Shown here: one piece after another, positions 35,646 through 38,416 of the stretch
Layout of the letters: the number at the start of each line of letters is the position of its first letter
Numbering within the stretch: position 1 is the stretch's first letter
From: Nocardioides furvisabuli
Lineage (GTDB): Bacteria > Actinomycetota > Actinomycetes > Propionibacteriales > Nocardioidaceae
Direction of reading: 5' to 3'
Length of the DNA stretch: 64,000 nucleotides
Assembly (NCBI RefSeq): GCF_021083185.1
Contig: NZ_JAIGQB010000001.1
Location: 248,001 to 312,000 of the forward strand
Translations under genes and position numbers: made by a program
The notes under the pieces: model-generated
The model's database searches: none
The model's input: only the letters and a program-made list of their open reading frames with translations
Told to the model about the DNA's origin: nothing

Positions 35646-36616
35646 CGCTCCACCCGTCGATCGCGGCGGTCCGGCTCCCGGTCCGACGCGCCCTGTCGGT
35701 CCTCGCTCCCGGTGACGTCGTGGTCGTGGCGTGCAGCGGTGGCGCGGACTCGCTCGCGCTCGCATCGGCCGCGGTCTTCGAGGGCCACAAGCGGGCGCTG
35801 CGCGTCGTCGGCGCCACGGTCGACCACGGCCTCCAGCCCGGCTCGGATGCCCAGGCCGAGCGCGTGGTCGCCCAGCTCGCGGCGATGGGCGTCGACGAGA
35901 CGCTGACCGCACGCGTGCGGGTCGACACCGGGGGCGGGACAGGACCGGAGGCCGCCGCCCGGGAGGCGAGGTACGCCGTCCTCGAGCAGGTCGCCGAGCA
36001 CTTCGGCGCGCGGGCGGTGCTGCTCGGGCACACCCTGGACGACCAGGCCGAGACGGTGCTGCTCGGCCTGGCCCGCGGCTCGGGCGGACGCTCGCTGCAG
36101 GGCATGCGGCCCGGCTTCGGGGTCTTCGTGCGTCCGCTGCTCGGCGTACGCCGTGACGACACCGTCACCGCCTGCCAGGTCGAGGGCCTCGACGTCTGGG
36201 ACGACCCGCACAACCACGACCCGGGCTACACCCGGGTCCGGGTGCGCGAGCGGGTGCTGCCGGTCCTCGAGTCCGAGCTCGGCCCGGGGGTCGCGTCGGC
36301 GCTGGCGCGCACGGCCGACCGGCTGCGGGAGGACACGGCCCTCCTCGACGACCTCGCGAGCGCTGCGCTGGAGCGGGTGCGCCGCGACGTCGGCCTCGAC
36401 GTGGACGTCCTCGCCGCCGAACCGCCGGCGATCCGCCACCGGGTCGTCCACCGTGCCGCCCTCGACGCGGGCGCCCCGGCCTCGGAGCTCAATCGCGACC
36501 ACGTCCTGTCCGTCGACGCGCTCCTCACCGGCTGGCGCGGGCAGAAGTGGATCGACCTCCCGGGCCCGCTGCGTGCGCTGCGACGTGACGGGATCCTGGC
36601 CTTCGAGCGTCCCTGA
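35642..36616 (+). CDS. tilS: tRNA(Ile)-lysidine synthetase
   Basis: A 324-residue N-type ATP pyrophosphatase with PP-loop SGGADS (32-37), GATVDHGLQPGSD and GHTLDDQAETVLL. It adds lysine to C34 of the CAU tRNA so that it reads AUA, an essential function. It lacks the long C-terminal domains of enterobacterial TilS, usual for actinobacteria. The next conserved gene should be hpt; a DUF559 gene and repeats intervene. Confidence 0.94.
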   Translation: MTLHPSIAAVRLPVRRALSVLAPGDVVVVACSGGADSLALASAAVFEGHKRALRVVGATVDHGLQPGSDAQAERVVAQLAAMGVDETLTARVRVDTGGGTGPEAAAREARYAVLEQVAEHFGARAVLLGHTLDDQAETVLLGLARGSGGRSLQGMRPGFGVFVRPLLGVRRDDTVTACQVEGLDVWDDPHNHDPGYTRVRVRERVLPVLESELGPGVASALARTADRLREDTALLDDLASAALERVRRDVGLDVDVLAAEPPAIRHRVVHRAALDAGAPASELNRDHVLSVDALLTGWRGQKWIDLPGPLRALRRDGILAFERP

Positions 36617-36629
36617 GTCCGGCGACGCT

Positions 36630-36657
36630 GGATTTCCACTCGCTCGAGTGGAAGTCC
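36630..36657. repeat. 28-bp palindromic repeat, copy 1
   Basis: Outer arms GGATTTCCACTCG / CGAGTGGAAGTCC around CT; one arm mismatch. Followed by TTCGCCGGTCGAGCGTGGA. Copy 2 starts 64 bp downstream. Confidence 0.9.
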
Positions 36658-36693
36658 TTCGCCGGTCGAGCGTGGACAGCCCCTCGACCGCCT

Positions 36694-36721
36694 GGACTTC
36701 CGCTCCTGTGAGTGGAAGTCC
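36694..36721. repeat. 28-bp palindromic repeat, copy 2
   Basis: Arms GGACTTCCGCTC / GAGTGGAAGTCC around a 4-nt centre. Followed by ATTGCCGGGACCGCGG, like the context of copy 4. Confidence 0.9.
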
Positions 36722-36792
36722 ATTGCCGGGACCGCGGTGGTGCCTGTGGATGACGTACGCCGTCCCTGCTCGTTCGTGGGCACGCTGGATCG

Positions 36793-37728
36793 ATGCACCG
36801 CAACCGCCCCTTCGACCGGCGCCAGCCGTTTCCCCGGTTCCGGGCGCTCCAGGCGGGCCTGCCGCGTTCGGTGGTCGACTCCCCGGCCTTCCGGCGCCTC
36901 CTGCACGGAGTGATCGTCGACGCGGACGTCCCCGACTCCGCCCTGCTGCGGGTCAAGGCCGCTCTCGCCTGCTTCTTCGACGACGCGCACGCCAGCCATG
37001 CGTCGGCAGCCCGCGTCTGGGGCGTGCCGGTGAAGACCCGTCCCGGGGAGCACGTCAGCGTGCCCGAGGACGGTCAACGCCTGCGACGCGCGGGCGTCAC
37101 CAGCCACCACCGACCCGACGCCGCGGTGGTCGTACGCCGGGGGGTGCGGGTGTCCGTCCTCACCGACCTCTTCGTCGAGCTCGCGGAGGAGCTCGCGCTC
37201 GTCGAGCTCGTCGTCGCCGGCGACTGGATGGTGCGTCGCCACGGCGTACGCGTCGCGGACCTCCGACGCGCGGCGCGGGACGCTCCCGGGCGCGCGGGCG
37301 CCCTCGCTCGCAGGGCGGCGAGCCACGTCCGCGCCCGCGTCGACTCGCCGATGGAGTCGCGCCTGCGGATGCTGCTCGTGCTCGCCGGCATCCCCGAGCC
37401 CCGCGTCAACATGAGCGTGCACGACGTCGACGGCCAACCGGTGCGGCGATTCGACCTGAGCTGGCCGGAGGTGCGCGTGATCGTGGAGTACGACGGTCGC
37501 CACCACGTGGAGCGGATCGAGCAGTGGGAGTCCGACCTCGCGCGGCGCGAGGAGATCGACGACGAGGGATGGCGGATCCTCGTGGTCGTCGCGTCGGGCG
37601 TCTACGTCGACCCCGGACGGACGGTCGAGCGCGTGCACGGCCTGCTTCGCGCGCGCGGCCTCGAGGGACTGCCCGAGCGGCCGAGCCCGGACTGGCGCCC
37701 GCACTTCCCGGGGCGGGAGGCGGCCTGA
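36793..37728 (+). CDS. DUF559 (Vsr-like) endonuclease-domain protein
   Basis: A 311-residue two-domain protein. Residues 1-100 resemble the winged-helix N-terminus seen in AbiEi-like and other DUF559 proteins. The C-terminal DUF559 domain has the PD-(D/E)xK-like constellation: Glu188 (MESRLRML), Asp221 (RFDLSW), Glu232 (VIVEYDGRHH) and the closing GWRILVVV strand. Relatives include very-short-patch-repair-like nucleases of unknown target. It interrupts the conserved tilS-hpt order and is bracketed by paired 28-bp palindromes; its stop codon lies across the first base of copy 3. It may act on those repeats; that is a hypothesis. Confidence 0.85.
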   Translation: MHRNRPFDRRQPFPRFRALQAGLPRSVVDSPAFRRLLHGVIVDADVPDSALLRVKAALACFFDDAHASHASAARVWGVPVKTRPGEHVSVPEDGQRLRRAGVTSHHRPDAAVVVRRGVRVSVLTDLFVELAEELALVELVVAGDWMVRRHGVRVADLRRAARDAPGRAGALARRAASHVRARVDSPMESRLRMLLVLAGIPEPRVNMSVHDVDGQPVRRFDLSWPEVRVIVEYDGRHHVERIEQWESDLARREEIDDEGWRILVVVASGVYVDPGRTVERVHGLLRARGLEGLPERPSPDWRPHFPGREAA

Positions 37729-37754
37729 ACTTCCGCGCGTACGGGTGGAAGTGC
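37727..37754. repeat. 28-bp palindromic repeat, copy 3
   Basis: Core CTTCCGCGCGTACGGGTGGAAG keeps the inner arms but the outer bases have drifted (GAA / TGC). Followed by ATCGTCGGTCGAGCGCGGA, matching copy 1 context. It overlaps the last bases of the DUF559 stop codon. Confidence 0.85.
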
Positions 37755-37790
37755 ATCGTCGGTCGAGCGCGGAAGGGTGATCCGGGGCCT

Positions 37791-37818
37791 GAACTTCCGC
37801 GCGCACGAGTGGAAATGC
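37791..37818. repeat. 28-bp palindromic repeat, copy 4
   Basis: Starts exactly 64 bp after copy 3, the same spacing as copies 1 and 2. The outer bases are changed as in copy 3. Followed by ATCGGGTGGGGACCGCG, like copy 2 context. Confidence 0.85.
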
Positions 37819-37852
37819 ATCGGGTGGGGACCGCGCACCCGGACCAGCGCCC

Positions 37853-37858
37853 TAGGCT
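37853..37858 (+). promoter_or_regulatory. -10 box of hpt, leaderless
   Basis: TAGGCT with exactly 6 nt before the hpt ATG at 37865. Confidence 0.5.
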
Positions 37859-37864
37859 GCGTCC

Positions 37865-38416
37865 ATGGACTCGTCCCACGTGGAGCACGACCTGGTCAAC
37901 GTCCTCTTCACCGAGGCCCAGATCCAGCAGAGGCTGGGGGAGATGGCCCTCCAGATCACCGACGACTACGCCGGTCGCGACCTGCTCGTGGTCGGTGTGC
38001 TGCGTGGCGCGGTGATGGTGATGGCCGACCTCGCGCGAGCGATGCCCGGTCACCTGGAGATGGACTGGATGGCGGTCAGCTCCTACGGCTCCGGCACCAA
38101 GTCCAGCGGCGTCGTGCGGATCCTCAAGGACCTCGACACCGACATCAGCGGTCGCGACGTGCTGATCGTCGACGAGATCATCGACACCGGCCTCACGCTG
38201 AGCTGGCTGGTCAACAACCTCTCCAGCCGCAACCCGGCCAGCGTCGAGATCGCCACTCTCCTGCGCAAGCCGGAGGCGCTGTCGATGCCGGTGGAGCCGA
38301 AGTACGTCGGCTGGGACATCCCCAACGAGTTCGTCGTCGGCTACGGCCTCGACTACCGCGAGCGCTACCGCAACCTGCGTGACATCGGCACCCTCGCACC
38401 CCACGTCTACTCCTGA
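37865..38416 (+). CDS. hpt: Hypoxanthine phosphoribosyltransferase
   Basis: A 183-residue type I phosphoribosyltransferase. The PRPP-binding motif is VLIVDEIIDTGLTLS, with the flexible-loop region SSYGSGTKSSG and the purine-site VKY-like segment EPKYVGWDIPNEFVVGYG. It salvages hypoxanthine and guanine to IMP and GMP. The order hpt-ftsH-folE is conserved in actinobacteria. It has its own leaderless-type promoter. Confidence 0.95.
   Translation: MDSSHVEHDLVNVLFTEAQIQQRLGEMALQITDDYAGRDLLVVGVLRGAVMVMADLARAMPGHLEMDWMAVSSYGSGTKSSGVVRILKDLDTDISGRDVLIVDEIIDTGLTLSWLVNNLSSRNPASVEIATLLRKPEALSMPVEPKYVGWDIPNEFVVGYGLDYRERYRNLRDIGTLAPHVYS

Follow-up and report, generated by a model that had tools for sequence, protein, structure and literature searches.

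A gene for a predicted two-part nuclease lies between tilS and hpt in Nocardioides furvisabuli, with a cassette of two palindromes on either side of it. The cassettes keep a fixed spacing, are matched privately to individual members of the protein family, and are dispersed without the gene. The protein probably binds the palindromes and cuts a core between them, which would let gene-less cassettes spread; we infer that the protein itself moves the cassettes. We also lean towards a broader reading, in which the module represents a new class of mobile repeat that is widespread in Actinomycetota. In this class, an AbiEi-type reader would be joined to a homing-endonuclease blade, and a private, phased, bipartite cassette would frame the gene and be copied round the chromosome. 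Such a system would be an analogue of REPIN-RAYT assembled from toxin-antitoxin and homing parts, and its members would form a natural library of pairs of nuclease and 60-bp target.

The window is the whole stretch of DNA analysed (64 kb), and all positions given below refer to it. The module in the window (genome G000) has the following features.

36617..37849, whole module, between the tilS stop and the CCCTAGGCTGC stretch preceding hpt; delimited by the tilS-hpt gap of 10-18 bp in relatives
36630..36657, cassette 1, palindrome 1
36668..36675, + strand, cassette 1, core GAGCGTGG beside the cassette centre, the fixed-place core of type A cassettes
36694..36721, cassette 1, palindrome 2, 64 bp from palindrome 1
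36793..37728, + strand, gene for an AbiEi-like/EDxHD-nuclease-like protein (DUF559), 311 aa, ATG to TGA
36805..37332, + strand, predicted AbiEi-like DNA-binding fold, residues 5-180
37339..37665, + strand, predicted Vsr/I-Bth0305I-like nuclease fold, residues 183-291
37727..37754, cassette 2, palindrome 1, overlapping the stop codon of the gene
37765..37772, + strand, cassette 2, core GAGCGCGG
37791..37818, cassette 2, palindrome 2, 64 bp from palindrome 1

The neighbours of the module in the window are proteins with a TilS domain and a phosphoribosyltransferase domain; hpt is the name used in an earlier note on this DNA, and phosphoribosyltransferase is the domain found. That note had placed four 28-bp palindromes here, in two pairs spaced 64 bp start to start, and had taken the pairs as direct repeats of one two-palindrome cassette. 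The palindromes are real and lie at those positions, the spacing holds for both pairs, and the pairs are such direct repeats. With up to 3 mismatches allowed, its exact consensus recovered no copies other than 1 and 2 (0 expected, from 100 shuffles); the second pair, copies 3 and 4, is less well preserved, yet in register. A shorter consensus matched all four copies on the + strand at 0 mismatches and gave 9 matches in total at up to 3 mismatches, against a chance mean of 3.2. The repeat unit is the two-palindrome cassette and not the single palindrome. An RNA element was considered and rejected, as Rfam returned only three matches to miRNA precursors, far under the gathering scores.

The open reading frame at 36793-37728 encodes a protein of 311 aa. 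It scored 23.0 bits against DUF559 (PF04480), above the Pfam cut-off of 20.6 bits, and 24.5 against MTES_1575, below the cut-off of 38.2 for that family. In the predicted structure, an AbiEi-like DNA-binding fold is joined to a nuclease fold of the Vsr/I-Bth0305I (EDxHD) type. Residues E188, D221, H238, and D248 are conserved in the predicted nuclease fold and would form its active site; the E, D, H, and D residues of EDxHD enzymes occur together with a predicted catalytic-domain fold, and the AbiEi-like fold of the N-terminal part is likewise a prediction. In homologue searches, plasmids gave 4 weak matches, all to the nuclease part alone, and phages gave no match. Carriage of the gene by plasmids or phages was rejected on these searches.

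The earlier note had held that tilS and hpt are normally adjacent. This is true of the five genomes closest by hpt (G018, G016, G011, G021, and G029; 95-98% identity), in which the gap is 10-18 bp; one such junction without the module reads GACCCTAGGCTGCAGCCC. Across the 30 hpt loci read, the claim holds in part, with a gap of 5-257 bp at 19, other inserts at 5, the module at 2, and no usable tilS match at 4. Five named loci carry the gene with its 64-bp cassettes at the tilS-hpt site: L133 (N. lacusdianchii), L134 (N. allogilvus), L135 (N. ganghwensis), L137 (N. glacieisoli), and L140. In L136, a gene with 67% identity also occupies the tilS-hpt site. Elsewhere, L142 holds a gene (79% identity) with cassettes at a locus with no tilS, hpt, or ftsH within 4 kb, and G398 holds a gene (81% identity) between cassettes. 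This distribution indicates that the module changed place or was gained and lost.

Some tilS-hpt gaps hold material of a different kind. The other inserts (L113, L114, L115, L118, and L123) measure 823-1014 bp and contain reading frames. A cassette-like repeat of a different type, GACTTCTGGCCCC...AAGTCCTACACGTGTG, occupies the 97-bp gap of L109 (G020) without a gene; it resembles the flanks of the G005 C3 homologue L088. A hairpin, TTTCCCCGG...CCGGGGAAA, lies in the gap just before hpt in L126 (G023) and L113 (G003).

In the cassette found in the window, here called type A, the two palindromes stand exactly 64 bp from each other and enclose a conserved GAGCGTGG-like core in the middle. When 24 palindrome-bearing stretches (the window, 4 from its own genome, 10 from G005, 4 from G018, and 5 named loci) were scanned for distances of 40-90 bp, 29 of 31 pairs lay at 64 bp; the spacing is therefore no local coincidence. 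Three G018 stretches (L100, L101, and L102) have a lone type A palindrome with no partner at 64 bp. The core matches GAGCGTGG in at least 6 of 8 bases, at a fixed place adjoining the centre, in 45 of the 53 distinct type A cassettes pooled from everything fetched, each cassette being read in its better-scoring orientation.

Site spacing was then tabulated by protein cluster (n = 31). It is 50-53 bp in 24 clusters, 62-64 bp in 3 (the type of the window, L138, and weakly L193), and 41 bp in 1 (L190), and the other 3 clusters fall outside these classes at 21, 45, and 104 bp. At about 52, 64, and 41 bp, the classes approximate whole helical turns of B-DNA (five, six, and four, respectively). L136, which shares the locus of the window's gene, has type-A-like half-sites 52 bp apart. 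Among nine periods tried in a helical-turn test, vector strength peaked (0.84) at 10.4-10.5; 8 of the 9 periods exceeded 0.7 because spacings of 51-52 bp dominate, so that the phasing rests mainly on the classes at 41, 52, and 64 bp and on L136. The arms of the 64-bp type keep the half-site TGNANTTCCACNCG. Covariation is at chance at arm positions 7 and 14 and above chance at position 5 (p 0.0012). Since most variable arm positions lack covariation, the sequences favour the view that the palindromes resemble double-stranded protein sites more than REP-type hairpins; given the result at position 5, a hairpin role may also exist.

The genome of the window (4.1 Mb) contains six cassettes, two at the gene and four elsewhere (C12, C23, C28, and C32), all with the 64-bp spacing, as counted with a single-palindrome pattern plus tolerant inspection of flanks. 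The single-palindrome pattern matched 7 of 58 genomes, own genome included, and matched more than once only in G000, G005, and G018. A two-palindrome pattern for type A matched 12 of 215 Nocardioides genomes including the window's own, that is, 11 of 214 others, and the reversed pattern gave 0 matches in the 215. A type A gene was found in 8 of the 12 cassette-bearing genomes (G000, G005, G398, G402, G406, G418, G490, and G518); of the other four (G018, G429, G445, and G478), the gene search covered G018. G018 has type A palindromes and no type A gene at E 1e-30 (best identity 51%), and none of the 5 cassettes of G445 has the gene inside the stretch read. Up to 13 type A cassettes occur in G490.

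Type A cassettes are largely intergenic. With a simple gene caller, 25 of 27 overlap no called gene by more than 2 bp; the cassette of L099 lies inside a called gene and that of L094 overlaps one by 30 bp. Among 15 solo cassettes, the genes on either side are convergent for 7 and divergent for 2, and 10 cassettes start no more than 44 bp past the end of the left-hand gene as called by the same simple program.

Orthologous sites in close relatives were compared for the presence of cassettes. G418 (N. lacusdianchii), a close relative, has orthologues of three G000 solo cassettes, with 93-95% flank identity. The C23 solo cassette of G000 is a clean 120-bp insertion at the stop codons of two convergent genes, which meet directly without a cassette in G418 and G406. 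Conversely, the G418 cassette at C45:181239 measures 119 bp by comparison with G402 and is absent from G000, G402, G406, and G398. G018 lacks the G418 cassette at C45:311041 (gap of about 98 bp, 75% flank identity); this is a weaker case because the G000 site matched on one side only. The ends of these insertions (98, 119, and 120 bp) are not sharp, no clear target duplication was seen, and none of the two to four relatives aligned showed a gene-bearing copy at a polymorphic site. Cassettes are thus dispersed without the gene, and their presence at one site varies between close relatives.

Other repeats are present at the C23-orthologous site in G402 and G398; in G398 (L310) and G011 (L219), this site holds another inverted repeat, ATAGTCCGCTGCGA...TCGCAGCGGACTA in CACACCCCC arms. 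In addition, a segment of 415 bp (1318-1732 of L283, G418 C48) that is absent from G000 lies beside the C32-orthologous cassette.

Homologues of the protein were searched for in the genus and beyond. At E 1e-30, 30 proteins were found in 24 of 59 genomes of the genus, often flanked on both sides by repeats of quite different sequence. The window's own genome has 5 other homologues, of which 4, at G000 C27:303663, C30:90918, C28:80483, and C2:55619 (L025-L028), are each accompanied by different, private flanking repeats. Since most cassettes escaped a search of the homologues' surroundings for strong palindromes, the upstream flank was compared with the downstream flank instead. Among the best 80 of 368 named loci, drawn from Nocardioides, Phycicoccus, Knoellia, Ornithinimicrobium, Microlunatus, and others, the two flanks shared a repeat at 1e-6 in 55 of 77, compared with 89 of 5852 mismatched flanks. 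Under a stricter rule, the figures for these best 80 were 55 of 73 loci against 0 of 185 neighbouring genes at the same loci, and 18 of the 73 homologues had no flanking repeat at 1e-6. A phylum-wide search, in which 41 of 296 genomes matched and at most 7 candidates were scored per genome, gave 29 distant actinobacterial homologues, or 27 after removal of two short-contig artefacts. Flanking repeats were found for 13 of the 27, against 2 of 812 mismatched pairs; one of the 13, L230, resembles an ordinary terminator hairpin.

The repeats diverge together with the proteins. A cassette was common to 72 of 80 ordered pairs with at least 70% protein identity, to 6 of 106 pairs at 60-70%, and to 9 of 5364 below 60%; close pairs may share a cassette via common descent at one locus, so that these counts indicate co-divergence and not experimental specificity. 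The earlier note had proposed that the protein recognises or mobilises the repeats and had named the lack of further copies near DUF559 genes elsewhere as evidence to the contrary. Such copies were found. Cassettes with the 64-bp spacing frame 7 of 8 further type A genes examined (at least 67% identity); those of the remaining, most divergent gene (L136, 67%) are degenerate and spaced at 52 bp. Recognition of the repeats by the protein is well supported by this co-divergence of sequences, and appears probable.

A second type of repeat was characterised. Type B is an inverted site, ACACGTGTCCG...TGGCCC-N17-GGGCCA...CGGACACGTGT, which is 61 bp long in 23 of 25 cases (22 G018 stretches). Its pattern matched 57 times in G018, 28 in G021, 18 in G011, and 28 in G065, and at most 6 times in the other 55 genomes. 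A gene flanked by type B is present in three of these four type B-rich genomes; G065, with its 28 matches, has none at E 1e-30. For a type C pattern, the reversed-pattern control was noisy (0-8 matches each way per genome), and type C is therefore used as a hint only. Type B and type C half-sites often adjoin in G021, G011, and G065, in G021 repeatedly 83 bp apart, and mixed half-sites such as GCACGTGCGGCGGTTCTCGCCC occur in these genomes, as if hybrids form.

A gene between its own cassettes, together with gene-less copies elsewhere, suggests that the protein recognises and spreads the cassette. The combination of an AbiEi-type and an I-Bth0305I-type fold, a two-part site of about 60 bp, and a conserved centre points to binding at the arms and action in the middle. 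The predicted protein would bind both phased palindromes of each cassette of about 100 bp, the AbiEi-like part reading the half-sites (TGNANTTCCACNCG here), and the nuclease part would nick or cut near the conserved central core. The cut would start the spread of the cassette, either by repair-dependent copying or transfer or by excision and reinsertion, and gene-less copies would thereby reach new intergenic sites. The upstream cassette may double as the operator of the gene.

Regulation could instead be the whole function. The cassettes would then be operators of an AbiEi-type repressor, the upstream one controlling the gene and the scattered ones controlling other genes, with the nuclease in a secondary role. 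This is possible but unlikely. The predicted AbiEi-like N-terminal fold agrees with it, as do a cassette geometry that suits a double-stranded site, the two solo type A cassettes between divergent genes, and the description of AbiEi and Rv2827c as binding pairs of 23-bp inverted repeats at the promoters of their own genes (PMC7319586). However, the gene is as a rule followed by a further cassette downstream, 7 of the 15 solo cassettes have convergent genes on either side, a setting in which promoters are not expected, 10 of the 15 closely follow the end of the left-hand gene, and site occupancy differs between close species. Solo cassettes might also be scars, left when a cassette-gene-cassette unit inserts and is then lost via recombination between its direct repeats, with one cassette remaining as in a solo LTR. 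We consider this improbable: although the two cassettes at the gene repeat each other directly in G000 and in G005, and L142 has the whole unit at a different locus, one matching gene was found for as many as 13 type A cassettes (G490) or for 25 type B cassettes (those read in G018), and the relatives aligned at polymorphic sites showed no gene-bearing copy.

A scenario in which the nuclease gene is a passenger and the cassettes are moved in trans by a different enzyme, be it a RAYT or another transposase, is highly improbable. Some cassette-bearing genomes do lack a matching gene, but the sequence of the cassette follows that of the protein. Furthermore, a search at E 0.001 that covered the Y1_Tnp family only (PF01797) found no match in any of the 8 genomes examined, G000, G005, and G018 among them, whereas control genomes matched in 5 of 14 cases; a RAYT was rejected as the driver on this result. 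Terminators or a chance local duplication, unrelated to the gene, are barely credible as explanations. Copies do sit directly after stop codons, but the region 36400-38000 has no terminator-like site with a T run, on which ground a transcription terminator was rejected as a candidate. Simple local duplication, which the earlier note had set against its own proposal, does not account for 64-bp doublets with a common core in 12 genomes, with reversed-pattern controls at 0. The preferred reading remains that the protein binds the palindromes and cuts the core of the cassette.

REP-type repeats are a long-standing puzzle, and REP elements without a matching enzyme gene in the same genome are also known. 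To our knowledge, one kind of driver has been described for them, the Y1 transposase. If the preferred reading is true, the module would supply a second, unrelated driver, and partnerships between domesticated enzymes and private repeat doublets would have evolved more than once. It would also provide a testable job for DUF559, a Pfam family of unknown function, and the family would offer matched pairs of protein and long target from which AbiEi-like DNA reading could be learned.

The module resembles AbiEi and Rv2827c of type IV toxin-antitoxin systems in its predicted N-terminal fold and in its paired inverted-repeat sites. The site bound by AbiEi in its own promoter consists of two 23-bp inverted repeats separated by 3 bp, and that bound by Rv2827c in its own promoter consists of paired 23-bp repeats separated by 13 bp (PMC7319586). 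By summing, the Rv2827c pair as described there spans 59 bp in all, and the type B site (61 bp) is close to it. Unlike these proteins, the present one is fused to a nuclease, and its cassettes occur on both sides of the gene and in dispersed positions. No toxin gene (AbiEii/DUF1814) adjoins the gene in the window or in the six tilS-hpt loci, and the module is therefore not an AbiE pair. On its target, which measures nearly 60 bp, I-Bth0305I forms a dimer (PMC3943268). The protein of the module shares the EDxHD residues and, by prediction, the fold of this enzyme, and the 61-bp type B site comes close to its target in length. In contrast to I-Bth0305I as described, no intron or intein was seen here, and the site lies on both sides of the gene and is scattered without it. 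Vsr/DUF559 proteins such as Caulobacter VsrA have no AbiEi-like part in the description available for them.

A search of the open-access literature found no description of a mobile-repeat system of this kind. In REPIN-RAYT systems (REPtrons), the enzyme gene lies next to private doublets, and further doublets are dispersed (PMC3116915). The module likewise has private palindrome doublets on both sides of the enzyme gene, has fixed-spacing doublets scattered between genes, and shows co-divergence of enzyme and repeat, all traits shared with REPIN-RAYT (PMC3116915; PMC8266576). It differs in its predicted enzyme, AbiEi-like and EDxHD/Vsr-like and not a Y1 HUH transposase, and in its sites, which look more like phased double-stranded half-sites than like REPIN-RAYT hairpins. 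Because Y1_Tnp was not found in the 8 genomes, the module is not filed as a member of REPIN-RAYT, although its way of life is alike, and the earlier note's description of it as REP/RAYT-like with another enzyme is borne out. By analogy, the module likely acts like a REPIN with its enzyme, built from other, unrelated parts.
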